Below are positions 1,903 through 35,692 of a stretch of DNA of 55,185 nt, one piece after another. The position numbers and the translations under genes were made by a program. The notes below the pieces were generated by a model that saw only the letters and a list, made by a program, of their open reading frames with translations, was not told the origin of the DNA and did no database searches. The stretch spans positions 5,179 through 60,363 of the forward strand of contig JANXAM010000013.1 in NCBI GenBank assembly GCA_025062155.1, read 5' to 3'. The DNA comes from Gloeomargarita sp. SKYB120 (lineage in GTDB: Bacteria > Cyanobacteriota > Cyanobacteriia > Gloeomargaritales > Gloeomargaritaceae). The number at the start of each line of letters is the position of its first letter. The first letter of the stretch is position 1.

Positions 1903-1929
1903 CGCTTTTGCCCTCCCTTCCGTCTTTAT

Positions 1930-1960
1930 CATAAATTGTATAACTATATAATAATTTATG
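1930..1960. promoter_or_regulatory. Operator/promoter of the persulfide operon (perfect 8-bp inverted repeat)
   Basis: The divergent space between the dioxygenase and the repressor contains CATAAATT, 15 bases, then AATTTATG, a perfect inverted repeat in an AT-only stretch. TATAAC and TATAAT -10-like hexamers lie inside it. BigR/YgaV-type repressors bind AT-rich palindromes that cover the -10 region of their own promoter, so this is the likely binding site controlling both directions. The repeat is seen directly. The binding protein is inferred from position. Confidence 0.7.
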
Positions 1961-1997
1961 CAAGCCACAGATGGGTTATGCTGAGGTTAAGGAAGCG

Positions 1998-2363: not shown

Positions 2364-2925
2364 TGACCAGGGCGTTGCCGATATTCATCGCCTGGTCCAG
2401 TCCTTCCCGCAACGCCAGCTCAACAACGCGCACCACTTCGTTTAGGAGGCGGGGCAAAAGCGCCTGCTGTTCAGGGCTGAAGGGTTCCAATACGTAGTGG
2501 GCGCTCTCTCCCACCACTGGACGACCGATGCCGATGCGCAACCGGGGAAATTCTTGGGTCCCTAGGTGAGCAATGATGGATTTCATCCCGTTGTGCCCGC
2601 CGGCAGAACCCTGTTTACGCAGGCGCAACCGGCCAAAGGGCAAGTCCAAGTCGTCGTAAATAACTAGGATTTCGCGGGGAGTGAACTTGAACCAGCGACA
2701 GACCGCCTGAACCGCCTGGCCAGAGTGATTCATATAAGTATTCGGCTTCAGCAGCACAATCCCTTGGCCTTCGGCGACCCAACCGTGCCACTGGGATTTT
2801 TCCCGCCACGCCAATCCCCACCGGCCCGCCAAGGCGTCCACCGCCATAAATCCCACGTTGTGTCGTGTGCGCTCGTACTTGGCCCCTGGATTCCCCAAGC
2901 CCACCATCAAGCGCAAGGGGGACAT
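2356..2925 (-). CDS. pth: Peptidyl-tRNA hydrolase
   Basis: 189 residues, the usual Pth length. It cleaves the ester bond of peptidyl-tRNA released by stalled ribosomes. VGLGNPG at the N-terminus, the catalytic histidine in RTRHNVGF, the substrate-binding asparagine in PNTYMNHSG, YDDLDLPFG with the catalytic aspartate, and GSAGGHNGMKS are all present. It starts only 5 bp after the stop of the ribonucleotide reductase ORF, so the two probably share a transcript. No residue known to be needed is missing. Confidence 0.97.
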   Translation of the reverse strand: MSPLRLMVGLGNPGAKYERTRHNVGFMAVDALAGRWGLAWREKSQWHGWVAEGQGIVLLKPNTYMNHSGQAVQAVCRWFKFTPREILVIYDDLDLPFGRLRLRKQGSAGGHNGMKSIIAHLGTQEFPRLRIGIGRPVVGESAHYVLEPFSPEQQALLPRLLNEVVRVVELALREGLDQAMNIGNALVIT

Positions 2926-2930
2926 GGTTT

Positions 2931-5216
2931 CTAGGTCGCTGGTGGCTGACTAGGTGTCTCGCAGGTCATCCCTTCGCAGGCGGCCACCTCCGGCGTCAAG
3001 GGCACCTGGGGTTGGTCGTACTGGCGCAACAACGCCCCGAAGTCATCCGATTTGCGTCGTTGGAGCACCTGTTGCATCAGCGCTTCGTAGCGTTCTTTGC
3101 TGATCGGTTCAAAGGGCAACCGGGGAAAGGTTTGCAGCGCATCGAACCGGGCCAACAATGCGGCGCTGATATAGCCCTCATCGTGCTGAATTGCCTGGTA
3201 AATCCGGTCGGCGAGTTGCTCAATCTCATGCTCGCGAAACTCAATCGTCGCCGATGTGTTGTGGGTAGTGTAATGGCGCTGGACATTCATGTAGAAATCG
3301 AATTGGGCTAGGGCGCTGAATTGACTGATGTCCACCCCCGCCTCGTCGGCAATGTCCGCCCAGGAGACCGCCACCGGAATTTCCACCAGCCATTCGGTGC
3401 AGCGCGGGTCAAAGGGGTCATTGAGTAAGTGCCCCTGCTCGTCCTTATCGGCTTGACCTGGCACCACGCTATAGCCGTAATCCATGCAGGCCAGGGCCAC
3501 CGGGTCATTTTTGGCAAAGGTGATGCGACGGATGTAGCGCTGGGCTTTGGGGGGATGCCACCCCGGCGACGCATTGGTGAGCAAACTTTTCGTACCCGCC
3601 GGTTGCACTGTGGTGCAGCGATTGGGCCGCCGTAACCCATGCCGGTCGCAGTAGTCCCACACCACCCGATGCACAACTTCTTTCCAAAACGTGAGATAGT
3701 CGGCCTCCTTCTGGCGCAAAATCAAGCCTAGTTCGCTATCCGGTCGTCCCGCCGCCCACCACTGGAGCCATTCCTTGCCAAAGGCATGCACAAAGAAATC
3801 AAACAACCCTGTAAACGACACCCCCACAATCGGGTCAATCTCTCGCGAGTATTGAAAACGCGGCTCCACAAACCGGTGGTGCAACAGGGCGGCTACTGTT
3901 AGAGCGCCAGCGGTAAAGGCTTTTTCCTGCTCTTCAAAGTTATGGGGATCAATCCGGTTTAAGTGAATTTCAGATAGGTTACAGTGAAAATCAGCACCGA
4001 TAATTTCGCCGCAGTTATGCACAACCAACCCATTGGCATCAAAACGATTAGCGCCTGGAACAGAGCAGTCGTAAACCAGCTCCTCCCCATCTGGAACCAA
4101 GGCCATGACGGTTGCCGTAAATCGCTCACGGTTCAGGTGCCGTTGGTGGCGTTCAAGTAACGTGGCTAAACGAGTTGCTTTGTCGGGGTCACGAAACCCA
4201 ATCAACCGCTGAAACTCCTGCAAATTGTCACCGCTAATGACCAGTTCGTGTTGCGCCCGACAGGGATAGGCAACCAGTTGTCGTTGGGAATTAGGCAATA
4301 AACGGGTATGGGCTGGACGCCGGTTGATGGAGAGCGTTGAAACAATGCCCAACCGGAGCAACATGCGCTGCACCGCCCGCAACCGTTCCAGGTCGCTGTG
4401 GGCTAACCGCACGCTGACCCCTTTGGTCTGGTCGCCTTGGACACTGCCATCAGCATCAAAAAATCCCCCTAGAAAGCCCCGGTAGAATTCATAACTGGCG
4501 CGTTCAATGGCTGGTGTAATAATTTTGCGGCCTTCACCTAATCCGTAAGATGCAGCCAGATGGAATAAACGAGCGCTTCCTACTTCACTGTAGCGGTTCT
4601 GGGGATGATTTCGTAAAATTTGGCTGGAAAAATCAGGGAAAACTGATTGACAAAGGGCTTGGGCAAACTCAGCCATCATGACTTGGTGTTCGCCCCAGTA
4701 ACGCCAATGGCCTCGCCGTCCATGACTGGGTACATATTCCGACAAACAACCATCGCCCATCAAATTGCCTAGTAACCAGCCCTCGGTCCAGGTACCTATG
4801 CCCGACCAAGGCAACATCCCCCGGTGGTTGTGCAAGCAGATGAGGTCACCCGGCTGAAGATGCGCTGCTGCAACCCATGCACAGTCCTGGCGTTGCGTCG
4901 TTTGCCGAATGACCTTGAGCACAGGGTGGTTGGCGGTCAAGCGCAGGCAGTAACCCTCCCACGTGTGGAGCCGAAACACAGGTTGCATCCCACTGCAGAA
5001 GAAACCCGCCGGTGTCGTTTGGAACAGCTTCCCATGCACATACGTCCCATGCGGCTGACCGATGAGTTCCTTGACCTGTCGCGCTCCCCACTCGGTCTGC
5101 ACCCAAGTATCGGCGGTGACGCAGGGATTCAAGCCATAGCGGCTCATGCGGTGGTCGAGTTCCGCCTCCAGGGCGCTTTCGGTCATGGAAAGGGAACGTT
5201 CAGGCGCTTGGGTCAT
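2931..5216 (-). CDS. nrdJ: Class II ribonucleotide reductase, C-terminal half, with intein (N-terminal half absent)
   Basis: 761 residues: an N-extein stub of 31, an intein of 370 (residues 32-401) and a C-extein of 360. The C-extein matches the adenosylcobalamin-dependent reductase of cyanobacteria: CGEIIG at the active site, CTTVQPAGTKSLL, SPGWHPP, and a C-terminal CX4C pair (C747/C752) that would re-reduce the active site. After splicing, NP joins CGE to rebuild the NPCGE motif whose cysteine forms the thiyl radical. About 370 residues that normally precede this point (nucleotide-binding region, specificity site and the first redox cysteine) are not encoded upstream or anywhere in the window. 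The gene is therefore split, with the other half elsewhere, or internally deleted. The reading frame itself is intact. Confidence 0.85.
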   Translation of the reverse strand: MTQAPERSLSMTESALEAELDHRMSRYGLNPCVTADTWVQTEWGARQVKELIGQPHGTYVHGKLFQTTPAGFFCSGMQPVFRLHTWEGYCLRLTANHPVLKVIRQTTQRQDCAWVAAAHLQPGDLICLHNHRGMLPWSGIGTWTEGWLLGNLMGDGCLSEYVPSHGRRGHWRYWGEHQVMMAEFAQALCQSVFPDFSSQILRNHPQNRYSEVGSARLFHLAASYGLGEGRKIITPAIERASYEFYRGFLGGFFDADGSVQGDQTKGVSVRLAHSDLERLRAVQRMLLRLGIVSTLSINRRPAHTRLLPNSQRQLVAYPCRAQHELVISGDNLQEFQRLIGFRDPDKATRLATLLERHQRHLNRERFTATVMALVPDGEELVYDCSVPGANRFDANGLVVHNCGEIIGADFHCNLSEIHLNRIDPHNFEEQEKAFTAGALTVAALLHHRFVEPRFQYSREIDPIVGVSFTGLFDFFVHAFGKEWLQWWAAGRPDSELGLILRQKEADYLTFWKEVVHRVVWDYCDRHGLRRPNRCTTVQPAGTKSLLTNASPGWHPPKAQRYIRRITFAKNDPVALACMDYGYSVVPGQADKDEQGHLLNDPFDPRCTEWLVEIPVAVSWADIADEAGVDISQFSALAQFDFYMNVQRHYTTHNTSATIEFREHEIEQLADRIYQAIQHDEGYISAALLARFDALQTFPRLPFEPISKERYEALMQQVLQRRKSDDFGALLRQYDQPQVPLTPEVAACEGMTCETPSQPPAT
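4014..5123 (-). other. Intein with LAGLIDADG homing endonuclease, inserted before the nrdJ catalytic cysteine
   Basis: 370 residues in frame. It begins with Cys1 (CVTADTWVQT, block A), has TANH in block B (LRLTANHPV), two LAGLIDADG-type motifs (LLGNLMGDGCLSE and FLGGFFDADGSVQG), block F near YDCSVPGANRF and block G ending LVVHN. The next residue is Cys+1, so all canonical splicing residues (Cys1, block-B His, penultimate His, terminal Asn, Cys+1) are present. Both acidic residues of the endonuclease motifs are visible, so homing may still work. Boundaries follow from restoring the reductase motif LNPCGEI. Confidence 0.93.
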
Positions 5217-5245
5217 CGTCGCGTCCTAGGCAAGTCCAAAGTCAT
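5213..5245 (-). other. Ten-codon ORF overlapping the nrdJ start (possible remnant of the true N-terminus)
   Basis: On the minus strand an ATG at 5245 opens MTLDLPRTRR and then TGA, which overlaps the ATG of the reductase ORF (ATGA). Cyanobacterial NrdJ proteins often begin with a short lead containing a (L/F)P-T-like stretch before their first conserved block, so this may be what is left of the original N-terminus after an internal deletion. It is too short to prove homology and could be chance or a leader peptide. Confidence 0.3.
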
Positions 5246-5372
5246 GATATAGCTAAACCACCTTTAGAGAGCAAACTTAACAACAGAGCTTCGCCCTGCG
5301 ACCGAGGGGACACCCCGCTACCGAGCGATTTGGTCTAAGATAAGAGTATCGGGGATGTGCAAGATGACCGGG

Positions 5373-5579
5373 ATGCCCACCCTGCGAATCCTGCTGAGTG
5401 ACCAGGTGTTGGAACCGGAAGTGATTTGTCAGAGTTGCCCGCTGGCCAGCCAGAGGGGAACACCCCGATGGTCAGGGGGACGGTTGGGATGCGGTTATCC
5501 GGCGCAGCGAGGAGAAGCCCAGGAACCGCTGGCCTTTGAATGCGCGATGGGATTTCGAGTGGTAGCCCTTCGCTCCTAG
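5373..5579 (+). CDS. Small cysteine-containing conserved cyanobacterial protein
   Basis: 68 residues from the ATG at 5373. An ATG 18 bp upstream is also possible. The features are CQSCPLAS near residue 20, GRLGCGYPA near 40 and FECAMGFRVVAL at the C-terminus, giving four cysteines spaced as in a small metal-binding or redox protein. I recall this pattern in uncharacterised short cyanobacterial proteins but know no function. It lies alone between the reductase and a DUF3318 gene, on the same strand as the latter. The spacer 5246-5372 upstream holds nothing else I can recognise. Confidence 0.65.
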   Translation: MPTLRILLSDQVLEPEVICQSCPLASQRGTPRWSGGRLGCGYPAQRGEAQEPLAFECAMGFRVVALRS

Positions 5580-5619
5580 ACAAAACTAAGATAGGCAGGG
5601 GAGAACGCGAGGGACTGTT

Positions 5620-6243
5620 ATGCCGACAAGTGCCGCTACCGATGCCTACCAAGGTGAATTTCGCCGCCTGCAGGGCCTATTGCCAATGGAAATGCGCGGC
5701 TGGGTCACCATTGTGCCCAGTACAGCCATGAATCCGCCGGTAATCACCAGCGAAGAAGTGGACAAGGACCAGGTGGAGATTCAAATTGACCCGGTGCGGT
5801 GGGACCAACTGGCAATTGACCAGCGGAATTTGCTCTTCTGGCACGAGGTGGCCCGCATCCAGAGCGATACTTTGCCCAAAGAAGGCTGGGAAATGGCAGC
5901 CCTAGCGATTGGCCTGGGGGGAACGGTCGGGGAATTGTGGGTGCAAGACACGCTGTTGCTGTTGCTATCCCTGGGACTGACGGGGTTTGCGGGGTATCGG
6001 CTGTGGCGGCGACACCAGAAACAAAACGCTTTGAAGTGGGCGATTCAGGCCGATGAACGGGCGATTCAACTGGCAGTGCAACACGGCTATACCCTCCCAG
6101 CCGCCTATAAAAGCTTGGGGAGCGCCCTGAAACTGCTGGCGGAACAGACCCCCAACAAGGGGTTGCGCCGTCGCTACGAAGCCCGTCTCGATGCCCTCAA
6201 ACGGAGCGCCCAACGGGCCAAGCAGAGCCGTTCCCGCGAATAA
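5620..6243 (+). CDS. DUF3318-family cyanobacterial membrane protein
   Basis: 207 residues. The N-terminal half is soluble, with the conserved core LPMEMRGWVTIVPS, VRWDQLAIDQRNLLFWHEVARIQ and KEGWEMAALAIGLGG. A hydrophobic segment (about 107-127, LLLLLSLGLTGFAGYRLW) is followed by a basic helical C-terminus. This is the layout of the cyanobacteria-specific DUF3318 family, whose function is unknown. HEVARIQ superficially resembles a gluzincin HExxH but lacks the second histidine, so I do not call it a peptidase. AGGGAC precedes the ATG. It ends 104 bp before rpaA. Confidence 0.75.
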   Translation: MPTSAATDAYQGEFRRLQGLLPMEMRGWVTIVPSTAMNPPVITSEEVDKDQVEIQIDPVRWDQLAIDQRNLLFWHEVARIQSDTLPKEGWEMAALAIGLGGTVGELWVQDTLLLLLSLGLTGFAGYRLWRRHQKQNALKWAIQADERAIQLAVQHGYTLPAAYKSLGSALKLLAEQTPNKGLRRRYEARLDALKRSAQRAKQSRSRE

Positions 6244-6347
6244 GTTGCGCCCCTTGACAACGCCCTATAATAATGGGTAGGCCTACTCATCAATATGGGG
6301 AACGCCCTTGCCTACTATAGAAAAGTTGTTTTTATTGCTGTTTTATT

Positions 6348-7103
6348 ATGCCACGCATTTTGGTGATTGATGACGACGCCGCCATTACAGAATTGGTGAA
6401 AGTGAATTTAGAATTGGCGGGTTATGATGTCAGCGAAGCCAACGATGGTGTAAAGGGACAGGCGCTCGCCATCCAATTGCTGCCGGATTTGATCATGCTG
6501 GATTTGATGTTGCCGCGGGTGGACGGGTTAACGCTATGCCAGCGCCTGCGGCGGGACGAGCGCACCAGCCACATCCCCATCCTGATGTTGACGGCCTTGA
6601 GTCAAACCCAGGACAAGGTGGAAGGGTTTAACGCGGGCGCCGACGACTACCTGACCAAACCCTTTGAGGTGCAGGAGATGCTGGCGCGGGTGCGGGCCTT
6701 GTTGCGGCGGGCGGACCGGGCACCCCAGGCAGCCCCTGGGGAAATTCTCAGCTACGGCCCGTTGACCCTGATCCCGGAGCGCTTTGAGGCGATTTGGTTT
6801 GACAAGACGATTAAACTGACCCATCTAGAGTTTGACCTGCTCCATTGCCTGTTGCAACGGCACGGGCAAACGGTGGCCCCCAGCGACATCTTGCGGGAGG
6901 TGTGGGGCTACGACCCGGACGACGACATCGAGACAATCCGGGTACATGTGCGGCATTTGCGCACCAAACTGGAACCGGACCCCCGCCATCCCAAGTACAT
7001 CAAAACGGTGTACGGGGCGGGCTATTGCCTGGAGCTGCCGCCGGTGGATGGGAAATTGCCCACAGGCCGGAGTCAAACGACGACGTCTCCTTCCCAGAGC
7101 TGA
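6348..7103 (+). CDS. rpaA: OmpR-type response regulator RpaA (circadian output)
   Basis: 251 residues: a receiver domain with DDD at 8-10, the phospho-acceptor D52 in LIMLDLMLP and the LTKPFE lysine, then a winged helix with [25 protein letters not shown] and [10 protein letters not shown]. The sequence follows RpaA rather than RpaB almost word for word ([38 protein letters not shown]). RpaA is phosphorylated by SasA and dephosphorylated by CikA, and sets clock-driven transcription. The leader has a TATAAT at 6266-6271 and the palindrome GTAGGCCTAC at 6277-6286. A TTGACA at 6254 is only 6 bases from that TATAAT and so is not its -35. The ycf4 gene follows 31 bp downstream. Confidence 0.93.
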
Positions 7104-7134
7104 TAGGATCAAACCAGCGAGTGCCTTTGGGTTT

Positions 7135-7698
7135 ATGGCGACGGAGACGGTGACGCCAACTCGTTACCGGGAATCTGTTCAGGGTGCGCGTCGCCTGAGC
7201 AACTACTGGTGGGCAACGGTGACGGGCTTGGGTGGTCTGGGATTTCTGCTGGCTGGGATTTCCAGCTATACCCGGGTGAATTTGTTGCCCTTTGCTGACC
7301 CCACCCAGTTGCTGTTTATCCCCCAGGGCATCGTGATGGGCGCTTATGGCGTGGCGGGTTTACTCCTGAGCGGGTTTTTGTGGTTGTTGATTGTCTGGGA
7401 TGTGGGCGGTGGGTACAACGAATTTGACAAGGAAACCCAACGGGTGACGATTTTCCGGTGGGGCTGGCCAGGAAGAAACCGGCGGGTGGAGCTGGTGTAT
7501 GACCTGGCGGAGGTGCAGGCCATCCGGGTGATGGTCCGGGATAACTTCCTCAATCCCCGGCGGGCTTTGTATCTGCGGCTGCGAGGTAAGCGGGATATCC
7601 CTTTGACGCCGGCGGGACGACCCCTGGCTCTGGGGGAACTGGAGGAACGGGCGGCGCGATTGGCGCGATTTTTGGGTGTGCCAGTAGAGGGATTGTGA
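7135..7698 (+). CDS. ycf4: Photosystem I assembly protein Ycf4
   Basis: 187 residues, normal length. Two membrane helices lie near residues 24-45 (WWATVTGLGGLGFLLAGISSY) and 62-85 (GIVMGAYGVAGLLLSGFLWLLIVW), followed by GGGYNEFDKE and IFRWGWPGRNRRVEL and a soluble thylakoid-surface domain, all hallmarks of Ycf4. Ycf4 acts as a scaffold for photosystem I assembly. The start is the ATG at 7135. A longer reading frame upstream is only a shadow of rpaA. Its TGA overlaps the next gene's ATG by one base, so a ycf4-cyclophilin transcript is likely. Confidence 0.95.
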   Translation: MATETVTPTRYRESVQGARRLSNYWWATVTGLGGLGFLLAGISSYTRVNLLPFADPTQLLFIPQGIVMGAYGVAGLLLSGFLWLLIVWDVGGGYNEFDKETQRVTIFRWGWPGRNRRVELVYDLAEVQAIRVMVRDNFLNPRRALYLRLRGKRDIPLTPAGRPLALGELEERAARLARFLGVPVEGL

Positions 7699-8417
7699 TG
7701 GGACGCGTTGTGTGGCTGGCATTTGTGCTATTGTGGCTGGTGGGTTGCCAGGCCAACGCCGACAGCCTGAATCCATCTCGCCCGGAGCCTGGAGCGATGA
7801 CATCTTCCCGGTGCAACATCCCCCCCGAACTGGTGCAACCATTGCGCGGCTATCCCTGTCTTAACGGCAAAGCGGTTGTGGAACTGGTGGTCAACGGCCA
7901 GACGATCCTGCTGGAGGTAAATGGGGAAGACGCGCCAGTGACAGCGGGGAATTTTGTGGACTTGGTACAGCGCGGGTTTTACGACAACTTGACGTTTCAC
8001 CGCGTCGTGCGGGAGCCCCAACCGTTTGTGGTTCAAGGTGGCGACCCCAAGGGCAACGGCACTGGCGGGTTTGTGGACCCCCAGACCAAGCGGGAGCGGG
8101 TCATTCCCTTGGAGATCAAGCCGGAAGGGGCCACCCAGGCCTTGTATGGGCGCACGTTCCCGGAGCAGAACATCCAGCAAGCCCCCAAGTTGCGCCACCG
8201 GCGGGGTGCCCTAGCGATGGCCCGTTCCCAAAATCCCAATTCCGCCTCTTCCCAGTTCTACATCACCCTTGCCGAGACCAGCTTCCTGGATGGGAACTAT
8301 GCAGTTTTTGGTTACGTGACCAAGGGGATGGAGGTGGTGGACCGGATCAGGCAGGGAGACCGGATCACCCGAGCGCGGGTGGTGCAGGGTGCTGAGCATT
8401 TGACCACGATCCAGTGA
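7698..8417 (+). CDS. Cyclophilin-type peptidyl-prolyl isomerase, lipoprotein
   Basis: 239 residues. The N-terminus is a lipoprotein signal with lipobox LVGC near residue 17, so it should be anchored on the lumenal or periplasmic side. The rest is a cyclophilin domain: VTAGNFVDLVQRGFYDNLTFHRV, FVVQGGDPKGNGTGG, GALAMARSQNPNSASSQFYIT and NYAVFGYVTKGMEVVDRI. It carries the active-site Arg-Phe-Gln framework (FHR, QGGD, SQFY). It would speed proline isomerisation in exported proteins. ATG overlaps the ycf4 stop. The next gene starts 5 bp after the stop. Confidence 0.93.
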   Translation: MGRVVWLAFVLLWLVGCQANADSLNPSRPEPGAMTSSRCNIPPELVQPLRGYPCLNGKAVVELVVNGQTILLEVNGEDAPVTAGNFVDLVQRGFYDNLTFHRVVREPQPFVVQGGDPKGNGTGGFVDPQTKRERVIPLEIKPEGATQALYGRTFPEQNIQQAPKLRHRRGALAMARSQNPNSASSQFYITLAETSFLDGNYAVFGYVTKGMEVVDRIRQGDRITRARVVQGAEHLTTIQ

Positions 8418-8422
8418 TCGCG

Positions 8423-8758
8423 ATGGAAACCCCCTCGCGCTGGCGGTTGCTCGTGTACCTGTTGCCGGTGGTGGGTCTTGTGCCGGCGCTGTGGAACCTG
8501 GCAACCAATCGCCCACGTTCGCGGCGGGAACGGGAATTGAGCCGTAGCGTCGTGACTCTTACCGGCTTGTGGCTGGTCGCCTACGGGTTGTTGGGAACCG
8601 CCGCCCAGCAGGAGTCGTTGGCGCTGCCCGCCTTGGTGGTGAACAGCTTCGTGACGTCGGGCTACTTCGTCTTGCAGGTGTGGTTGACGCTCCGGGTCTG
8701 GCGAGGCGAATCCCCGTCCTTGCCGTGGCTAGGGCGTTTGGCTCGCCGTTTACCCTAG
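8423..8758 (+). CDS. Small conserved membrane protein, unknown function
   Basis: 111 residues with three likely membrane helices (about 8-23, LLVYLLPVVGLVPALW; 42-62, LTGLWLVAYGLLGTA; 70-92, LPALVVNSFVTSGYFVLQVWLTLRVW) and basic loops (NRPRSRRERE). I do not recognise a named family, but the layout recurs in short cyanobacterial proteins. It starts 5 bp after the cyclophilin stop and so is probably co-transcribed. A GTG at 8414 is an alternative start overlapping that stop. Confidence 0.6.
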   Translation: METPSRWRLLVYLLPVVGLVPALWNLATNRPRSRRERELSRSVVTLTGLWLVAYGLLGTAAQQESLALPALVVNSFVTSGYFVLQVWLTLRVWRGESPSLPWLGRLARRLP

Positions 8759-8799
8759 GGGCGATGTACGCTAATCTAAATGAAGCGCTGAGGTGACCT

Positions 8800-10149
8800 G
8801 TGTCTGTGACGCCCACACCCACTCGAATTGCTCCGGCGCGAGTACGGGCGCGACATTGGCCGCGATGGAGTCTGGCCCTGTTTATCCTACTCGGGGTCAG
8901 TTCAGCGGCGGTGGGCGGTGGGCTGGCCTGGTTTTTGCACAGTACTCCCCTGCAACAGCGGTGGTTGAGCCAGGAAGAAGCCAAAACCTTTTTTGGGGAA
9001 CCCATTGCCGGGGGATTTTGGGGCGTGCCGGAACTACGCCGCCCGGTGAATATCTTGTTTTTGGGGATCAAGGTGCTGGCGTTGGACCCCCAGGCGGGTT
9101 ACCAGAAGCGGGTCAACGATTTTGAGGGGCTAACGGACACGATGATGCTGTGGCGGTTTGACCCGGATAGGGGAACGGTGACCGTCCTTTCCCTGCCCCG
9201 CGATACCCAAGTGCTGATTAAAAATGACCCCTACAGCAAGTTGAACGAAGCCAACGCCAAAGGAGGGCCGGCGCTAGCCGCCGAAACCGTCAGCGGCCTG
9301 TTGGGAGGAGTGGTCATTGACCGCTACGTGCGGGTCAACCCTATGGCGATTGAAGCGCTGGTGGATGCCGTGGGGGGCATTACCATTAATGTCCCCAAAG
9401 ATATGAAATATCAAGACGACAGTCAGCACCTGTACATCCATCTCAAGGCGGGACCTCAGAAACTGAACGGCAAGCAGGCGCTGCATTTTCTTCTGTATCG
9501 CCAGGACGGGCTAGGGGATATTGGCCGGATTCAGCGGCAACAGATGTTCATGCGGGCCTTTCAGGAGCAAGCGTTGAACCCCCAGACTGTAACCCGCTTG
9601 CCCCAAATATTCAGCGCCATCAAGCAGTACGTAGATACCAACCTGACGGGCGAAGAACTGGTTGCCCTGGTGCGGTTTGCCCAGCAGACGCCGCGGGAAA
9701 AATTTCACATGATGCTGTTGCCGGGCCAGTTTGGGACACCAGGGCGCTTGTCCGGCTACTGGATTCCCGACCCCATCCGGATCCGGCAGATGGCGGTGCA
9801 ACATTTTGGTTTGCCGGCAGATACGACCTGGCGCGGGGAACTCCAGCTTGCCCAGATGGAGGTGGTGTTGCAGGACAGCACGGGTGAGCAAGGAGCCGTT
9901 CCGGCGGTGACCGAGCATCTCCTGAAGGCCGGATTCCGGCGTTTGTACCGCGAGGTACCCTGGCACGAGACGTTAAACCAGACAGTGATTATTGCCCAGC
10001 AGGGGAATGTGCAGGCGGCGCAAGCGGTACGCGACGCCCTTGGATTTGGCGAAGTTCGGGTGGACAGCACCGGCGTGCTCAACTCCGATGTCACGGTGCG
10101 GATTGGACGGGATTGGCGGTTCCATTTGAGCAGGGCTACTTCCCTCTAA
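8800..10149 (+). CDS. LytR-CpsA-Psr (LCP) family cell-envelope ligase
   Basis: 449 residues: a cytoplasmic basic N-terminus, one membrane helix (about 24-45), then the LCP catalytic domain outside, with GLTDTMMLWRFDP, SLPRDTQV, KLNEANAKGG and the RQDGLGDIGRIQRQQ arginine cluster that binds polyprenyl pyrophosphate. A C-terminal LytR_C domain (about 350-440) follows. LCP enzymes attach polysaccharides from lipid carriers to peptidoglycan or protein. The start is a GTG after AGGTG. Its TAA overlaps the stop of the convergent TPR gene in a CTAA tetranucleotide. Confidence 0.9.
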   Translation: MSVTPTPTRIAPARVRARHWPRWSLALFILLGVSSAAVGGGLAWFLHSTPLQQRWLSQEEAKTFFGEPIAGGFWGVPELRRPVNILFLGIKVLALDPQAGYQKRVNDFEGLTDTMMLWRFDPDRGTVTVLSLPRDTQVLIKNDPYSKLNEANAKGGPALAAETVSGLLGGVVIDRYVRVNPMAIEALVDAVGGITINVPKDMKYQDDSQHLYIHLKAGPQKLNGKQALHFLLYRQDGLGDIGRIQRQQMFMRAFQEQALNPQTVTRLPQIFSAIKQYVDTNLTGEELVALVRFAQQTPREKFHMMLLPGQFGTPGRLSGYWIPDPIRIRQMAVQHFGLPADTTWRGELQLAQMEVVLQDSTGEQGAVPAVTEHLLKAGFRRLYREVPWHETLNQTVIIAQQGNVQAAQAVRDALGFGEVRVDSTGVLNSDVTVRIGRDWRFHLSRATSL

Positions 10150-27930: not shown

Positions 27931-29688
27931 ATGCCCGCCTCAGGACGTTGGCAATTTCTCAGGCAGTTGTTTAATCCATTTAGCTGGCGGGGACTCGTGG
28001 TTATAGTGGCTGTAGCAGGAGGTGGCAGCTATTTCATGTACCGCCTCCATGACTACCACTGGAATGAATTAATGTTTCAGGTCCAGACGGTAGATTTTAA
28101 TATCCTGAGTCACACGCTGCCTACTAAGCTTTCCCTTGATCTACTGCGGGGCGACCTAACGGAGCTGCAACGGACACTGGACAGTGGCTACGGCTTTTTT
28201 GGGCTGGTGGTCACAGATGCCGATGGTCGCCAAATCATCGCCATGTCCAGGAGCGAAGACCGTTGGACCAGAAATTTACAGTTAGACCATCACCCCTACG
28301 ACCTGCTGTTTGACCCTCCACCTACCCAACCCCAAAAGTTTTACACCAGCTATGCAGCCAAAGCGCCGACGCCCTACCCAGTTCAACCCCAAGGTCGCGT
28401 GATTGGCCGAGTCTATTACGTTAGGAGAGTGCCTCGTTCATTTATCGAAGATTTAGCGATATGGTCCCAGAATCCTTTTGAGCTGCGGGATGACCGTTTT
28501 CTCTATACATTGACCTGCATCAGTGCTGTGTTCCTAGGGGCAGTTGGGATTATTGGTTGGAATGCTTTTCACCTTAGTCAGCAGCACTACAGGCAGGAAA
28601 AGCAACGGCTCGAAAAAGAGCGACATCAGGTCGCTGAAGCCCTAGCAGAATCACGGCAACAGCTACTCCAGACTCAATGTGAGAACTGTGAATTAAAACG
28701 GGCACTTGATGAACTGGAAAGAGCCATATCTAATTATCGAAATGAAATCCGCGAGTATCAAAACAAAATCCAAACTCTTCAGGAACTCGAAAATACTCAA
28801 AATACACTTCAAAGATTGATTGCTCAGAAGGAAGTTCATGAACGTGCTCAGCAGGAGCAGATTATCCGCCAGTTAACCCGAGGTTGCGATTCGGTGGGCT
28901 ATCTCAATACCCAGTTACTTCTGAAGTTGTACATAGCCTACATCATACCTCACTACGACCCTGCAGCTAACCATCTCACTTCTGGCGGATACTTGTCTCC
29001 CTTGCGGAGAATTGCCAGGTCACTGGGCGAGAATTTTGATAGACTCAAGGGAATTTATCGAGAACTTAAAAGAGCCTGTCAAGTAGCAGATAGAAGATTC
29101 AGCTATAGATATCAAACTACCGATGATAGGCAGTGTATCAACAACTTTCTTGGCACGTTGAGAGCTAGAGGCTATATCACGGGGCTAGGTCCCCTAGCTC
29201 AGGCAAGGTCTGTTCAGGGTCAGCTAAACGACAATTTTGAGTTCATCAACTTCTTGAATGGTAAATGGCTGGAGATGTACGTCCATAACTTTATTACTGA
29301 GCACTACCGCGTGGAGGATGGCTGGTTGAAAAACTTGAAGTACACGTCTTTAGGTGGGCAACAGGGCGAGTTTGACCTGATTCACTTGCCCCAAGCACCA
29401 AGTTCAAATTTGGACCAGACCAGTCAGCACTGTGGATTGGTCGTTATCGAGTGCAAAACCGGTGACTACGCAGAGAGAATCAGAAAGTATCAGGACTTGC
29501 GACAGTCCTTGGGCATACCACCTGAGCAATTTATCATGCTGGCGGTTGACGTTGCCGATCAGGACCTGGAGAATTTGTCTCAACGATATGAACTAACGTT
29601 TGCGAATCTGGGTCATCTGAGGCAAGCGTTTGAGCTGGCTATCAAATCCGCCACCGGGGGCAACCCTCAGCAACGGGGGGTTGCTTAG
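27931..29688 (+). CDS. Membrane sensor fused to a Card1/Can2-like PD-(D/E)XK nuclease (unusual)
   Basis: 585 residues from the ATG. A TTG 18 bp upstream is possible. Domains: helix 19-37; outside domain 38-189 with a Cache-like run (RGDLTELQRTL...FFGLVVTDADGRQII); helix 190-213; coiled coil about 216-312; helical domain 314-439; then a nuclease-like domain with GKWLEMYV (E448), GEFDLI (D482) and VVIECKTGDY (E507, K509). The spacing and the WLE/IECKTG wording resemble the C-terminal DUF1887 nuclease of Card1/Can2, but there is no CARF domain. Codons are visibly more A/T-rich than in neighbours, suggesting transfer. I infer a membrane-controlled nuclease. Target and signal are unknown. Confidence 0.72.
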   Translation: MPASGRWQFLRQLFNPFSWRGLVVIVAVAGGGSYFMYRLHDYHWNELMFQVQTVDFNILSHTLPTKLSLDLLRGDLTELQRTLDSGYGFFGLVVTDADGRQIIAMSRSEDRWTRNLQLDHHPYDLLFDPPPTQPQKFYTSYAAKAPTPYPVQPQGRVIGRVYYVRRVPRSFIEDLAIWSQNPFELRDDRFLYTLTCISAVFLGAVGIIGWNAFHLSQQHYRQEKQRLEKERHQVAEALAESRQQLLQTQCENCELKRALDELERAISNYRNEIREYQNKIQTLQELENTQNTLQRLIAQKEVHERAQQEQIIRQLTRGCDSVGYLNTQLLLKLYIAYIIPHYDPAANHLTSGGYLSPLRRIARSLGENFDRLKGIYRELKRACQVADRRFSYRYQTTDDRQCINNFLGTLRARGYITGLGPLAQARSVQGQLNDNFEFINFLNGKWLEMYVHNFITEHYRVEDGWLKNLKYTSLGGQQGEFDLIHLPQAPSSNLDQTSQHCGLVVIECKTGDYAERIRKYQDLRQSLGIPPEQFIMLAVDVADQDLENLSQRYELTFANLGHLRQAFELAIKSATGGNPQQRGVA

Positions 29689-29701: not shown

Positions 29702-30514
29702 TCACTCCACCCGCTGGGTCATGGGCGAGCTGGGTGTGGCGTAGGACTTGACGGGAATGCGCCCCGCCAAAAAGGCCAAACGTCCTGCTTCCACCGCTAA
29801 ACGCATCGCCGCCGCCATGCGGGGAGGGTCCTGGGCCTGGGCAATGGCTGTATTGACCAGCACCGCCTGCGCACCCATTTCCATCGCCTGGGCCGCTTCA
29901 CTGGGAGTCCCAATCCCCGCATCGATTACCACCGGCACTTTCGCCTGCTCAATGATGATGGCGATGTTACTGGCGTTGCGCAATCCTTGACCCGAGCCAA
30001 TCGGCGACCCGAGGGGCATCACTGTGGCACAACCAATTTCCTCCAACTGGCGGGCCAACACCGGGTCGGCATTGATGTAGGGCAAGACGGTAAAGCCCTC
30101 CTTCACCAGTTGTTCCGCCGCCCGTAACGTGCCAATCGGGTCCGGCAACAGGTACTTGGGGTCGGGAATGACCTCTAACTTGACAAAGTTGTTGTCTTCC
30201 TGGCCAAGTACCTTGGCCATTTCCCGTCCCAGGCGTGCGATGCGAATCGCCTCTTCCGCAGTGCGACACCCCGCTGTATTGGGCAATAGCCACAGCCGAC
30301 TCCAGTCTAATGCCTCGACTAGCCCGATGTGACCGGGGGCTTGGTCCTGCACGCGCCGCACCGCCACCGTTACCATCTCACAACCACTGGCGGCCACACT
30401 CGCCTGCATTTCCGCCACACTCCGGTAACGCCCTGTGCCCGTGAATAAGCGCGACCGGAAACACTTGCCCCCAATCCACAGCTCATCCACCGCTGGGGCT
30501 GCTGCAACGACCAT
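29702..30514 (-). CDS. thiG: Thiazole synthase
   Basis: 270 residues. It makes the thiazole phosphate of thiamine from 1-deoxyxylulose-5-phosphate, glycine imine and ThiS thiocarboxylate. The Schiff-base lysine lies in [74 protein letters not shown] are all present. In many cyanobacteria ThiG is fused behind ThiO. Here it stands alone. It follows pstB on the same strand across 37 bp without a visible terminator. No TPP riboswitch is seen in that gap. Confidence 0.95.
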
Positions 30515-30551
30515 GCCCAACCTATCTAACCAATGGCTCTATTCTAGCGGG

Positions 30552-31352
30552 TTAGCCGAATCGCCCGCCGACGTAGGCTTGGGTTGCTTCGTGACTGGGC
30601 TGCTGGAAGATTTTGGCCGTCACGTCGTATTCCACCAACTGACCGGTGCGACTCCCCTCCTTCATCTCCACGTTGAAGAAGGCGGTATAGTCCGACACCC
30701 GCGACGCCTGCTGCATGTTGTGGGTCACAATCACAATGGTGTACATGTCTCGCAATTCCTGCATCAGGTCTTCAATCCGCCGGGTGGAAATAGGGTCTAG
30801 CGCTGAGCAGGGTTCGTCCATCAAGATTACTTCCGGCTGCACCGCCACCGCCCGCGCAATACACAACCGCTGCTGCTGACCGCCCGAGAGGGCCGTCCCT
30901 GGTTTCTTCAACTTGTCCTTCACCTCGTCCCACAAGGCTGCCTGGCGCAACGCCCGTTCCACTAGCTCGTCCATGTCCCCCTTGTAGCCGTTGATGCGCG
31001 GCCCAAAGGCAATGTTTTCATAAATACTCTTGGCAAAGGGGTTGGGCTTTTGAAACACCATGCCGATCCGCCGCCGCAGGGCCACTGGGTCCACCGACGG
31101 GTCGTAAATATTCTTGCCATGGAACAAAATTTGCCCCTCCAGACGGGTGCCCTTGATAAAGTCATTCAGCCGGTTGAAACACCGCAGCAACGTGCTCTTG
31201 CCGCACCCCGACGGGCCGATAAATGCCGTGATCCGGTTGCGCTTAATGGGTAAGTCAATGTTGCGGAGCGCCAAGAACGTACCGTAGTAGAACGCATCCA
31301 CCTTGGCATGAAGAATAATGTCACTACCTGGTGCTCCTGTTTCTGCCCCCAT
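30552..31352 (-). CDS. pstB: Phosphate ABC transporter ATPase
   Basis: 266 residues from the ATG at 31352, which follows AAGGAG at good spacing. Walker A is GPSGCGKST, the signature [14 protein letters not shown], Walker [14 protein letters not shown] and the switch [13 protein letters not shown] and [21 protein letters not shown] are specific to PstB. It powers high-affinity phosphate uptake with PstS/PstC/PstA, none of which is here, so pstB is a stand-alone copy. A three-repeat PHO box lies about 93 bp upstream, implying induction by phosphate shortage through SphR. Confidence 0.95.
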
Positions 31353-31417
31353 TACTGGCTCCTTGCAACGCTGCAATAAACGCAATGAACCTGTTTAGAT
31401 TCAAGTGACTCGTCCCT

Positions 31418-31423
31418 AGTATA
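31418..31423 (-). promoter_or_regulatory. -10 element of the pstB promoter
   Basis: TATACT on the minus strand, about 66 bp before the pstB start codon and 21 bases after the PHO box. There is no good -35 hexamer, as expected where an activator bound to the PHO box replaces it. Confidence 0.55.
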
Positions 31424-31444
31424 AGAACCAATGCCACCCACCCA

Positions 31445-31474
31445 TGGTTAAGCTCCGGTTAAATTTAGGTTAAA
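31445..31474 (-). promoter_or_regulatory. PHO box (three 8-bp repeats, 3-bp spacers) upstream of pstB
   Basis: Read on the minus strand: TTTAACCT, AAA, TTTAACCG, GAG, CTTAACCA. This fits the cyanobacterial SphR site (PyTTAAPyPy(T/A) repeats with 3-bp gaps) with one mismatch in 24 positions, and the 11-bp period puts all three on one face of the helix. A TATACT -10 element lies 21 bases downstream at 31423-31418. The distal repeat overlaps the stop codon of the ParR-like gene. Seen directly; SphR binding is inferred. Confidence 0.82.
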
Positions 31475-31958
31475 AATCGTCCCCGAGTAGCGCGCCCAGC
31501 TCGGCGATCAGGGGGTCGGCAACGGTTGGCGGGGGAGGCGGCGGTGGTTCGACGGGCTTGGGGGGCGGAGTCACGTGTTGCCGGATCAAGGCTTCCACAT
31601 CGGCTCGGGTCAGCCAGGGGCGTTGTTGCAATTCCACAACTGCCTGCTCTAACCGTTGTAGACGCCGCTCCAGGTCACTGGGTGGGGAGGCTTGCAGGCG
31701 TTGTTTGACCCAGTCACTGAAACTAATCCCCTGGGCGGCGAGTTCGGCATCTAATTGTTGTTGCAGGGCTTTTTCTTCGGGGCCAAACGTGACGCTGTAG
31801 GAATGCCCTGCTCCCTGGACAAATTGCCGCAGCGCGATTTTGCACAGTTCACCAAAAGCAATTTGCTGAGCTGCTGCCCGGCGGTCAAGTTCTTCCAGGA
31901 GTTCATTATCCTCCGGGGTCGGGTAAAAGGTAATCGAGCGACTCACTCGTTTGCTCAA
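31470..31958 (-). CDS. ParR-like DNA-binding protein with tandem ribbon-helix-helix units
   Basis: 162 residues. Two similar units occur: residues 7-47 (RSITFYPTPEDNELLEELD..AAQQIAFGELCKIAL) and 53-89 (SYSVTFGPEEKALQQQLD..AAQGISFSDWVKQRL). Each reads as strand, helix, turn, helix of a ribbon-helix-helix, so the chain may fold as a one-chain pseudo-dimer. Then come a short coiled coil (SDLERRLQRLEQAVVEL), a proline-rich linker and an acidic tail (LIAELGALLGDDF). A DNA-binding head plus flexible tail is how ParR adaptors work, the tail contacting the ParM filament. Start TTG 2 bp after the ParM-like gene. GTG at 31946 is an alternative. Confidence 0.7.
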   Translation of the reverse strand: MSKRVSRSITFYPTPEDNELLEELDRRAAAQQIAFGELCKIALRQFVQGAGHSYSVTFGPEEKALQQQLDAELAAQGISFSDWVKQRLQASPPSDLERRLQRLEQAVVELQQRPWLTRADVEALIRQHVTPPPKPVEPPPPPPPTVADPLIAELGALLGDDF

Positions 31959-31960
31959 CC

Positions 31961-33037
31961 CTACGCCCCTTTATCTTTACTCAACTGCACTTGCCCATAG
32001 ATATATTGTCCCAAAGCGTTGGCTGTACGGGTGGGTTCAGCCAGGTGGGGCGTTAAACCATATTCCCGCAGCAGAGGCGCGAGGTCATTCCAGAAAAACT
32101 CCCCGCCGCCGCCAGTGATGATCACATCGGTCACTTGGCTGGGCAACCACTGGCGGATGCGCTCCCACAGTTCCCTGGCGAAATTGGCCCGGATGCGGGG
32201 GAGAATGTCGTCTAGGTCAATCGGTTTTTCGCCCCGGGGCCGGTAGAACCGCTGTCCCTCGGGACGATGGACGGCTTCGATCAGAGTCAAATCTTCGCTG
32301 TCTGCCCCTTTGATTTGAGCGGCCAGTTGCTCGTAAAACTGGCTCATGCCGAACTGCTCGCTGCGGGAAGTGCCCCGCGCAAAATGAAATTTATCCACCT
32401 TGAGCATGTCCGTTGTCTGGTGACCAATGTCAATCACCGCCACGTGCAGGTTGATCAGGGATTCGGTCTTCTTCCCAGCGGCTTTTTCCTTGTCCAGCGT
32501 TTCTTTTTCTTTTTTGTGACACCAGACCAGGCTGCCATAGCCCTCTGGCATCACCCAGACCTTCACCACATTGACGGTAAAGCTACGACCGCGGTAGGCC
32601 AGGGCGTGGGGCGCTTGCAGTTGGGCCACCAGTTGGCGTTTTTCCGTGTCGAATTGCTCCTGCGACAAGTAGGGCAACCCCAGGGAAATGGCTAGGTCGC
32701 CGCTCAACTCGAAATACCCGATACAGGCGAAGGTTTTGACCAGGGCGTCCTCGATTTTGGATTGCCCAACCCCTAACCCTGCGCCAAAATCTGCCGCCAA
32801 ATGGCCGATGGCGTAAGCGCGCCCTTGGTATTCTACCCACATGTCCCGCAGCGGGTCGCCCCCTTCAAACCGTCCCTGCCGGACTTGCTCCAGGGTAAGT
32901 TTGGCAACGTTGGCGGGAATGACTAATACTTCATCCGGGTCACTGCTGATACAGGTCTTGATGGCGGTGCGCCCCAGGTCCACACTCAACAGGGTAGGGG
33001 GACCGATATATCTACTGGTCATAGCCGGAAACACCAT
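31961..33037 (-). CDS. ParM-like actin-family ATPase
   Basis: 358 residues with the actin-fold nucleotide motifs: phosphate 1 LLSVDLGRTAIKTCI (about 17-31), phosphate 2 HVAVIDIGHQTTDML (about 198-212) and adenosine motif VTDVIITGGGGEFFWNDL (about 304-321). The family (ParM/StbA and relatives) forms ATP-driven filaments that push plasmids apart. It sits 2 bp before a ribbon-helix-helix partner and 5 bp after a repeat pair that could be its centromere/operator. An ATG at 33022 could be the true start. Chromosomal role unknown: it may be an integrated plasmid module or have a new job. Confidence 0.82.
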   Translation of the reverse strand: MVFPAMTSRYIGPPTLLSVDLGRTAIKTCISSDPDEVLVIPANVAKLTLEQVRQGRFEGGDPLRDMWVEYQGRAYAIGHLAADFGAGLGVGQSKIEDALVKTFACIGYFELSGDLAISLGLPYLSQEQFDTEKRQLVAQLQAPHALAYRGRSFTVNVVKVWVMPEGYGSLVWCHKKEKETLDKEKAAGKKTESLINLHVAVIDIGHQTTDMLKVDKFHFARGTSRSEQFGMSQFYEQLAAQIKGADSEDLTLIEAVHRPEGQRFYRPRGEKPIDLDDILPRIRANFARELWERIRQWLPSQVTDVIITGGGGEFFWNDLAPLLREYGLTPHLAEPTRTANALGQYIYGQVQLSKDKGA

Positions 33038-33042
33038 TTACA

Positions 33043-33091
33043 GCTAAGGATAGCACCCAGCCGCCGGAATGCTAAGCTAAGCATAGCACCC
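33043..33091. repeat. Direct repeat pair, 16 bp, 33-bp period (candidate parC/operator)
   Basis: GCTAAGGATAGCACCC (33043-33058) and GCTAAGCATAGCACCC (33076-33091) differ at one base. Their starts are exactly 33 bp apart, three helical turns. They fill the gap before the ParM-like start. In plasmid R1, parC is a set of direct repeats upstream of parM that serves as both centromere and ParR-repressed promoter. On the minus strand each repeat contains TGCTATNCT, an extended -10-like string. Confidence 0.65.
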
Positions 33092-33093
33092 TG

Positions 33094-33513
33094 TTGTCCT
33101 TTGACCCAATCCCTGTGCGTCCCCGGCAACTGACGTTGAGTTTTCCCTCCACGTTGTACCTCAGTCCGGTGTTGGATTTGCTGCTGGCCGATGTCCCGCC
33201 GGAACTGTTACCGCTCGTCCGCCTAGGCTTGCAGGAGGCGCTGGTCAACGCCGCCAAGCACGGGAATAACTTAGACCCCCGTAAGACCATCCGTGTGCAT
33301 TACGAAGGCCGCACCGATGGGTGGTGTTGGGTCATAGAAGACCAGGGGCCGGGGTGCCCTAGCGATTGTGATTGCCGCCCAGAAGGGCCGGAGTGGTCCT
33401 GGGAATCGGGCCGGGGCTTGTATATCCTGCATCAGGTGTTTGACCGGGTGGAATGGTGCGACCGGCGACAACGCCTCCAGTTGACCAAGCACCTGTCGGT
33501 GACCCGCCGCTGA
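33094..33513 (+). CDS. RsbW-like serine-protein kinase / anti-sigma factor (HATPase_c_2)
   Basis: 139 residues of a GHKL ATPase: N-box LQEALVNAAKHGNNLDP, G1 VIEDQGPGCP and G2 SGRGLYILHQVFDRVEW. RsbW-type kinases bind sigma factors and phosphorylate antagonist proteins. No antagonist (STAS) or sigma gene is near. The first start after an in-frame stop is the TTG at 33094. GTG at 33115 is also possible. The start lies directly beside the repeat pair, so a protein bound there would affect both divergent genes. Confidence 0.82.
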   Translation: MSFDPIPVRPRQLTLSFPSTLYLSPVLDLLLADVPPELLPLVRLGLQEALVNAAKHGNNLDPRKTIRVHYEGRTDGWCWVIEDQGPGCPSDCDCRPEGPEWSWESGRGLYILHQVFDRVEWCDRRQRLQLTKHLSVTRR

Positions 33514-33521
33514 AAGTACGG

Positions 33522-34157
33522 ATGCGGGATTGGCGCTGGTTGCCGTTGGTCGTCGGAAGCCTGGGAGCGCTGGCGTTGCTAGTCAATCGCAGTTTGACAG
33601 AAGTGCTTACCCCCGCCCAAACCCGCGCTGATGCCCTGGGTATTCTCCTGAGCGCTGTACTCATCCTCACCGGTCTCCTGTGGCGACAAATACAACCCAA
33701 ACCAGCCGAAGCAGTTGAATTGGTGGGGGTCCATGGCTTTGAGATGCAACCGGATTTGCCGACGTGCATCCAACAGGAACTGGCCTGGTTATCCCACACC
33801 CTCCTCACCACAACGCCGACCAAAACGGTGGTGGTCTATTGGGATGGTCAAACCTTGTTGCGGCGGGGCATCTTGGGGCCGCAGGCGCAGGTGCAACCGG
33901 GGCCGATCCTGCAACGGGTCCTGGCGCAACAAAAACCGGTGTATCTGGTAGACTTGAAGCTCTATCCAGGGCGGGTGGAATTCGATTATTTGCCCCCGAA
34001 TACCCAGGCGGTGATTGTGCAGCCAATGGCTGGCCGGGGGGTGCTGGTGGTGGGCGCAGACCGGCCCCGCTGTTACACGCGACAGGAAGAAAGCTGGATG
34101 GCGGCCTTGGCTGATAAACTGGCGGTGGTGCTGGCGACCCAGGGAGCACACTCATGA
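33522..34157 (+). CDS. Cytochrome b6f cofactor-assembly protein (CCB2/CCB4 family, DUF2930)
   Basis: 211 residues. Two N-terminal helices (about 5-23 and 39-56) are separated by NRSLTEVLTPAQTRADALG, then comes a soluble GAF-like domain. This matches cyanobacterial homologues of CCB2/CCB4, needed to attach the extra haem c of cytochrome b6 covalently. VYLVDLKLYPGRVEF and AVIVQPMAGRGVLVVGAD are conserved-looking. I chose the ATG at 33522, 8 bp after the kinase stop. The frame is open further upstream but overlaps that gene. Its stop overlaps the next ATG. Confidence 0.72.
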   Translation: MRDWRWLPLVVGSLGALALLVNRSLTEVLTPAQTRADALGILLSAVLILTGLLWRQIQPKPAEAVELVGVHGFEMQPDLPTCIQQELAWLSHTLLTTTPTKTVVVYWDGQTLLRRGILGPQAQVQPGPILQRVLAQQKPVYLVDLKLYPGRVEFDYLPPNTQAVIVQPMAGRGVLVVGADRPRCYTRQEESWMAALADKLAVVLATQGAHS

Positions 34158-34558
34158 AGCAAATCGGGCTGTCTATCAGTCTAGTGGCGGGGTTGCTGTT
34201 GGGCTGGCCGACTGTGCTGGCTGGGGGTTCTAAACCGACATCGCTAGTTGCCAACCAAAATCCCCGAGGACTGCGGGTAAGCAATCGCAGCAAACAACCC
34301 CTGCGGCTGGTGTTGCTGGCCCGCAAACCGGGCGGTGGTTACCAGGAACCAGTCCATTGGGACTTTGCGCCGGGGGAAGGGGAGCGCGAGGGATTGATGC
34401 TCAGCCTGCCGGAAGGGCCGTTGGCGCTGCAACCGGGAGATATTCTGGTGGCGTTTAGCCTGGATGGTTCACGGCGGTACTGGGGACCGTATGTGGTGGG
34501 CAGCACCAGTAAACCGACTCGCCCTAGCGACAACAGCGATTGGCAACTGGTTTTGTAA
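34154..34558 (+). CDS. Secreted conserved protein, unknown function
   Basis: 134 residues. A signal peptide (residues 1-23, cleavage after VLA) precedes a short, probably all-beta domain with paired strands (GLRVSNRSKQPLRLVLLARK, PVHWDFAPGEG, GDILVAFSLDGSRRYWGPYVVG). I recognise no family. Overlaps the cytochrome-assembly gene by ATGA, so it may act in the same compartment. 75 bp separate it from argC. Confidence 0.65.
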   Translation: MKQIGLSISLVAGLLLGWPTVLAGGSKPTSLVANQNPRGLRVSNRSKQPLRLVLLARKPGGGYQEPVHWDFAPGEGEREGLMLSLPEGPLALQPGDILVAFSLDGSRRYWGPYVVGSTSKPTRPSDNSDWQLVL

Positions 34559-34633
34559 TAACTTTGTCCCCAATTTTTCACCTGGACGAGGAGATGGCAT
34601 GTTAGGCTAACGGCAGGAGCGGGGGAGAGCGGC

Positions 34634-35692
34634 GTGACGGAGACGACCAAGGTTCCGGTAGCGGTGGTGGGGGCATCCGGTTATGGCGGGTTACAGCTTG
34701 TGCGCCTGCTGCTGGAACATCCGCACCTGGAGTTGGTGTACCTGGGGGGCGATACGAGCGCGGGGCAAGAATACGCCGATATTTACCCGCACCTGGGTCA
34801 CCGGTTGCATCGGGTCGTCGAGCCGGTGGATGTCTCTGTCATTGCCCGCAAGGCGCAGGTGGTGTTTCTTTCGCTGCCCAATGGCGTCGCTCCGAAACTG
34901 GTGCCGGATTTGCTGGCTGCCGGCTGTCAGGTGTTGGATTTATCCGCCGACTACCGGTTTCGGGATTTGCAAACCTATCAAACTTGGTACGGCATCGAAC
35001 GCAGCGATAAGGAGGTCGCAGCCAAGGCGGTGTACGGCCTGCCGGAACTGTACCGGGACGCCCTGGTGGATGCCCGTTTGGTGGGATGTCCAGGCTGTTA
35101 CCCGACGGCGAGTTTGCTGGCGTTGGCCCCGCTGCTGCGCCAGGGGTTGGTGGTGTGGGACAGTATTGTGATTGACGCGAAATCGGGAACGTCGGGGGGC
35201 GGGCGGCAGGCGAAGACTCACCTACTCCTGGCGGAAGCGGACCAGTCAGTGGCGGCTTATGGGGTGGCGCGGCATCGGCATCGTCCAGAAATTGAACAAG
35301 TCTGTGCGGATTTGGCGGGTCAGCCGGTGAAGGTGCAATTTACCCCCCATCTGGTGCCGATGGTACGGGGCATCCTGGCGACGGTTTATGCCCAGATGCG
35401 CGACCCAGGTCTGACTACGGAAGATTTGCTGATGATTTACCAGGCGTTTTACCGAGGGAAACCGTGGGTGCGGGTGCTGCCGCCGGGGGTGTATCCCCAA
35501 ACCAAATGGGCTTGCGGAACCAACATGTGCTACATCGGGCTGGAGTTGGACACCCATACCGACCGGGTGGTGGTGATGAGCGCCATTGACAACCTGATTA
35601 AGGGTCAGGCAGGACAAGCAGTACAATGTCTAAATATCAGTCGGGGTTGGCCGGAAACGCTCGGACTGCCCCAGTTGAGTTTCTACCCCTGA
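34634..35692 (+). CDS. argC: N-acetyl-gamma-glutamyl-phosphate reductase
   Basis: 352 residues. Third step of arginine synthesis: NADPH reduction of N-acetylglutamyl phosphate. NADP motif [15 protein letters not shown], catalytic C155 in [28 protein letters not shown] and HRHRPEIEQ are present. Start GTG after a GGGGGAGAG. PII (encoded at 23.4 kb) controls the preceding kinase step in cyanobacteria. The TGA overlaps the ATG of the next gene by one base. Confidence 0.96.

Follow-up and report, generated by a model that had tools for sequence, protein, structure and literature searches.

Card1 and Can2 nucleases are CRISPR accessory proteins that are activated by second messengers. Together with Cdn1 and VC1899 (DUF1887), they resemble the protein analyzed here in combining a winged helix with a PD-(D/E)XK nuclease bearing E-x-D and E-x-K motifs, but they differ in their CARF domain and cyclic-oligoadenylate input, in place of which our protein has a transmembrane Cache-like receptor. 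A periplasmic Cache-like fold between two transmembrane (TM) helices is shared with the sensor kinases LuxQ, CitA, and WalK. Among the relatives of our sensor, some are true histidine kinases and come with a response regulator; our protein instead ends in a nuclease, without a kinase domain, and its sensor lacks a Pfam Cache sequence match. SNIPE is an elongated protein, anchored in the inner membrane, whose cytoplasmic C-terminal nuclease acts directly on entering DNA (PMC13190303). SNIPE has one TM helix, a DUF4041 domain, and a GIY-YIG nuclease, without the periplasmic sensor domain found in our protein. Finally, HicA, RelE/HigB, and ParE toxins and NERD nucleases have the same folds as C-terminal outputs of the sensor family described below, in which these effectors are covalently joined to a membrane sensor.

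Domain architecture of the window protein

We analyzed a 55,185-nucleotide stretch of the genome of Gloeomargarita sp. SKYB120 (the window), in which one gene had been predicted to join a membrane sensor through a coiled coil to a Card1/Can2-like nuclease without a CARF domain. The predicted open reading frame proved exact (Table 1). An in-frame TTG upstream at 27913 would lengthen the protein by 6 residues, leaving the start codon uncertain. Profiles, predicted folds, catalytic residues, and topology upheld the central claim, and the domain order from the N terminus is TM1, Cache-like domain, TM2, coiled coil, winged helix, and PD-(D/E)XK nuclease. Full-length relatives of the protein were found in Gloeomargarita sp. 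SKYG116 (69% identity) and Gloeomargaritales VI4D9.

Table 1. Features of the receptor gene and its product (window coordinates)
Feature	Position	Strand	Residues	Basis or detail
Whole gene	27931..29688	+	585 aa	ATG at 27931, stop at 29686-29688
TM helix 1	27991..28047	+	21-39	Hydropathy; helix in model
Cache-like periplasmic sensor domain	28048..28497	+	40-189	Alignment; predicted fold
TM helix 2	28498..28566	+	about 190-212	Hydropathy
Coiled-coil linker	28567..28866	+	about 213-312	Free of Gly and Pro; weak SMC-like matches
Winged-helix domain, Card1/Can2 type	28867..29235	+	about 313-435	Fold; PADLOC match from 358
PD-(D/E)XK nuclease domain, Card1/Can2 type	29236..29685	+	436-585	E448, E480, D482, E507, K509

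Hydropathy analysis placed hydrophobic segments at residues 21-39 and 190-208, bordering an N-terminal domain that was modeled with high confidence (pLDDT 91.8) as a long helix followed by a small beta sheet and a second, exiting helix. Hydropathy and predicted fold thus agree with a Cache-like domain outside the inner membrane between two membrane helices. The best structural matches to this model were LuxQ (Z 8.0; 98 residues at 2.8 Å), CdgS9 (Z 7.6), CitA (Z 7.1), and WalK (Z 7.0), and nearly all of the best matches were Cache/PDC-type sensors, with a moderate level of similarity (best Foldseek E of 0.015). The search with Cache/PDC sequence profiles that had been proposed as a check of the original prediction gave no match, as no Pfam Cache profile matched any of 24 sensor-family members at an E of 0.1; the resemblance lies at the level of the fold. 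The coiled coil of roughly 95 residues was borne out by the complete absence of Gly and Pro from residues 210-317 and by weak SMC-like coiled-coil matches at residues 217-311.

A search of the PDB with the single protein sequence returned nothing meaningful. With a profile built from 26 homologues, only Card1, Can2, Cdn1, and VC1899 entries scored below an E of 1e-4. An AlphaFold model of residues 313-585 (pLDDT 87.5) retrieved 18 PDB chains with Foldseek at an E of <0.001, each of which was VC1899, Can2, or Cdn1. VIA-align gave Z scores of 16.8 for Can2, 16.1 for Cdn1, 15.0 for VC1899, and 11.8 for Card1 (range across the matches to this group, 11.3-16.8), compared with 7.6 for the next unrelated chain, and the match covered the winged-helix and nuclease domains over their whole length. 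The region originally described only as a helical domain does exist as a domain, but it is a winged helix of the kind that Card1/Can2 proteins also have.

G444, W446, E480, D482, and E507 were invariant across the 26 homologues, and E448 was kept in at least 90% of them. E480-x-D482 aligned onto E276/D278 of SthCan2, a double mutant of which is inactive (PMC7969007), and E507-K509 aligned onto the SthCan2 ExK motif. The originally proposed residues E448, D482, E507, and K509 were all present, with E480 having been overlooked. The Pfam profile PF09002 scored 18.2 bits with the whole protein and 21.7 bits with the C-terminal half alone, short of its curated cut-off of 26.4 bits; 20 of the 26 homologues matched the profile, and two relatives (L054 and L058) exceeded the cut-off. 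The subthreshold score of the window protein might suggest that the nuclease-like half is inactive and provides a nucleic-acid-binding or regulatory output, a reading that we consider highly improbable against the presence of all PD-(D/E)XK residues and the invariance of the acidic ones (E480, D482, and E507) in the homologues. Taken together, profiles, fold, and conserved residues indicate that the winged helix and nuclease are of the Card1/Can2 type with an intact predicted active site, and neither the lack of a nuclease fold nor a scattering of the catalytic residues, either of which would have counted against the prediction, was found.

The PADLOC CARF_PDDEXK profiles matched the protein at an E of 2.7e-7 over their non-CARF part only (profile position 162 onward), and most structural matches began past the CARF domain (Card1 142-373, Cdn1 143-399, and Tb Can2 151-437). 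As predicted, no CARF domain was found in the window protein, in which residues 1-312 are taken up by the TM helices, Cache-like domain, and coil. No defense-system profile in PADLOC-DB 2023 spanned the whole protein, with matches confined to the CARF_PDDEXK nuclease part and the coiled coil. There was likewise no linkage to type III CRISPR-cas, with no cas gene among the immediate neighbors; Cas10-like palm matches lay on contigs other than that of the window gene. In three other loci (L046, L052, and L056), Card1-like nuclease domains occurred in proteins of ~1,100 residues ending in an FGE-sulfatase domain, in which a CARF domain was not recognized either.

The sensor as a module with exchangeable effectors

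We found 76 sensor loci in a search of 84,980 species. All named loci were cyanobacterial, with Melainabacteria and Obscuribacterales included, and a few came from MAGs labeled differently or not at all. In a profile search of cyanobacterial genomes of the class, the sensor was detected in 30 of 390, and no relatives were detected in the viral contigs or phage records searched. The family is recognizable by the sensor motifs QTVDFNIL..LPTKLS and GRVYYVR. A literature search, which scarcely extended to subscription journals and preprints, found no description of it. The sensor half thus appears to belong to a previously undescribed cyanobacterial family with interchangeable effectors.

Pfam assigned HicA C termini to five relatives (L005, L026, L029, L067, and L070), NERD C termini to eight (L025, L027, L028, L032, L033, L035, L039, and L081), a Gp49/HigB C terminus to L040, and HATPase_c C termini, representing histidine kinase forms, to L006, L017, L038, and L049. 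DUF2325 C termini were assigned below the curated Pfam cut-off in L007, L030, and L031 and by a purpose-built profile in L034. The catalytic GSH was kept in the HicA fusions and D..ExK in the NERD fusions, and no HicB-like gene was seen beside those HicA fusions that we inspected by eye. A sensor copy on a Synechococcus elongatus plasmid has a ParE/RelE-like end (21.5 bits against a cut-off of 23.0) and is adjoined by DNA methylase, HEPN, GIY-YIG, and helicase genes. Most of the relatives seen adjoin housekeeping genes (enolase, rbcL, or prfA-like) rather than defense genes, and in several genomes the HicA forms occupy a conserved position next to enolase. A quick tree built from 52 sensor rows grouped the Card1-type sensors into one clade (SH-aLRT 86), and on this tree effector type changed at least 11 times within photosynthetic cyanobacteria, a starred NERD/DUF2325 pair included.

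Other members lacked a recognizable effector. In Chroococcus sp. FPU101, the C-terminal domain of a sensor-family protein (L099:9941-11947) was unrecognized. Four melainabacterial sensor genes (L088, L101, L114, and L126) had no recognized effector domain, and each was followed by a gene for a protein of about 1,080-1,110 residues with a SWIM-like CxC..CxH motif at its start as judged by eye.

The sensor histidine kinases are followed by a response regulator with a RelE/ParE-like tail, and one such kinase and regulator pair is encoded elsewhere in the window's own genome. The assignment of these tails is borderline since it rests on marginal matches (23.3 bits against 23.0 in Pfam; 19.5 against 27.9 in NCBIfam) and on a YR-L-Y-F-like motif held in common. 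RelE was not matched in a PDB profile search with the regulator tails, and hhalign of these tails with the plasmid RelE-type tail gave a probability of only 1.9. At a further locus (L176:6986-9352), a response regulator lies beside a sensor kinase, followed by transposase-like open reading frames and then one with a DUF2325-like tail, seen by eye and without a Pfam match; this arrangement is perhaps a split regulator-effector fusion.

The breadth of these outputs bears on the main mechanistic rival, in which the window protein would, like SNIPE, be tethered to the membrane and cut foreign DNA on entry, with its periplasmic domain docking to the entry complex instead of working as a ligand-gated switch. 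In its layout, with an anchor in the membrane, a long coil, and a nuclease at the C terminus, the protein resembles SNIPE (PMC13190303), and some other A2-family Card1-like proteins appear to lack the sensor and to have a short hydrophobic segment at the N terminus. However, neither DUF4041 nor GIY-YIG had a Pfam match in the window protein up to an E of 10, and the sensor is strongly conserved and common to histidine kinases and mRNA-interferase-type toxins, which argues for signal transduction rather than DNA capture. We therefore regard direct cutting of entering DNA as quite unlikely.

Genes for PhnD-like proteins lay within 35 bases of a sensor gene and in the same orientation at 12 distinct loci, mostly beside NERD forms of Nostocales, and a 13th was 312 bases away (loci with nearby PhnD-like genes include L142, L143, L071-L081, L131, and L177). 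In Nostocales, the gene for the binding protein often comes directly after that for the sensor. The arrangement is present on two annotated plasmids. Both plasmid partners also bear an SNase (staphylococcal nuclease) domain, and most of the other partners align with these two over their full length; in L177, which comes from another genome, the partner is joined to a protein kinase. An acid phosphatase gene is next in L142 and L177. No PhnD-like partner was found in the window's genus, in a search there that had no positive control. The binding-protein genes adjoining many sensor genes recall LuxP/LuxQ, and with LuxQ as the top fold match they make a LuxP/LuxQ-like pairing plausible by analogy for these members.

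Genomic setting and recombination at TM2

The window gene had been described as A/T-richer than its neighbors and standing alone, like an acquired module, and our analysis agrees. Its GC content was 48.4%, compared with 56.5-61.5% in seven neighbors, and its GC3 was 0.51, compared with 0.59-0.73. A macA/macB-like pair lies on one side and thiG, on the opposite strand, on the other, with an ABC ATPase and an actin-like gene further among the neighbors. Only in SKYG116 and in the window genome did a receptor gene come after macB; in five congeners the same macB site was occupied by other genes, and two of these five had a Card1-type receptor beside rbcL. Patchiness in the genus, two chromosomal sites, low GC content, and a recombination boundary within the gene all support acquisition.

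The recombination boundary emerged from comparison with SKYG116. Over codons 1-189, the two genes were 93-95% identical in DNA, with a sensor dS of 0.32, whereas past codon 189 they were 58-66% identical with saturated dS, a drop in DNA identity from 93% to about 62%; the macB-like neighbor was 82% identical with a dS of 1.15. Third-position identity fell from 84% before the junction to 45% after it, with the drop located at about 28500-28510, within about 10-20 bases of position 28500, the start of TM2 (Fisher p 2.6e-48). This sharp fall indicates that sensor and effector halves have been exchanged by recombination at TM2. Stronger selection on the sensor was rejected as the cause of its conservation because synonymous divergence jumps as well, and the continuity of the reading frame and of the homologous architecture across the junction makes a chimeric assembly unlikely.

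We also observed rearrangements around the gene. The segment at window 1595-10128 (L167) is inverted in SKYG116 and directly follows the receptor gene there, which places a rearrangement end at the 3' side of that gene. Close to window position 33510, identity to SKYG116 changes abruptly, from 85% to 96%. The thiG-to-actin-like block (window 29702-34708) is repeated in the same assembly (L173, G000 contig C48) at 85% identity, and about 90% further on, so this draft genome may contain a duplication or be a mixture of two strains. Within the block, at 31470-33037 (minus strand) and two genes beyond the receptor gene, lies an actin-like gene (ALP_N / MreB-like_C) that, together with a small partner gene, resembles a plasmid-type actin segregation pair.

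These distributions also bear on a role in stress response, in which a nutrient or envelope signal would slow growth through limited RNA or DNA cleavage. The PhnD (phosphate/phosphonate)-like proteins and acid phosphatase near some relatives, the conserved enolase-side HicA forms, and the existence of histidine kinase forms are consistent with such a role. However, the patchy spread described above, plasmid copies, repeated effector change, and intragenic recombination fit a conflict system better, and we consider a stress-response receptor unlikely.

Proposed mechanism and significance

Our computational analyses support the domain order, the two TM helices, the Card1-type fold and intact active site of the protein, and the recurrence of its sensor with other toxins, and we infer signal direction, dimerization, nuclease activity, a ligand, and a purpose in the following model. 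We favor the view that the protein is probably a one-component transmembrane receptor gating a toxic nuclease, most plausibly against phage entry or envelope attack. The Cache-like domain would be altered by a ligand, by a periplasmic binding protein, or by some disturbance of the envelope, and TM2 and the coiled coil would relay this change to the winged-helix/nuclease module in the cytoplasm. This module is probably dimeric, as in Card1/Can2, and would be inactive until rearranged. Once activated, it may nick nucleic acids (DNA and/or RNA) close to the membrane or degrade them, resulting in growth stop or cell death, most plausibly upon phage entry or envelope attack; the receptor would thus possibly serve in phage or envelope defense. 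The gene surroundings of the S. elongatus plasmid copy favor this model. The housekeeping setting of most relatives, the negative search for a PhnD-like partner in the genus (run without a positive control), and the sensor's lack of a Pfam Cache match weigh against it.

More tentatively, the family may constitute a previously undescribed, innate-immunity-like class of envelope receptors in Cyanobacteriota, in which a conserved periplasmic sensor, sometimes with a PhnD-like protein, feeds an outside signal either directly to an exchangeable intracellular toxin (HicA, RelE, NERD, or Card1-like nuclease) or to a kinase acting on a RelE-tailed regulator, with recombination at TM2. The window protein suggests that an outside signal can be connected to a Card1-type effector with neither CRISPR nor cyclic nucleotides involved. 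The family unites one receptor with at least five kinds of effector and a two-component branch, which makes it a testable case of interchangeable killing modules on a common envelope sensor, and its several independent fusions allow ligand and activation to be compared across the family.
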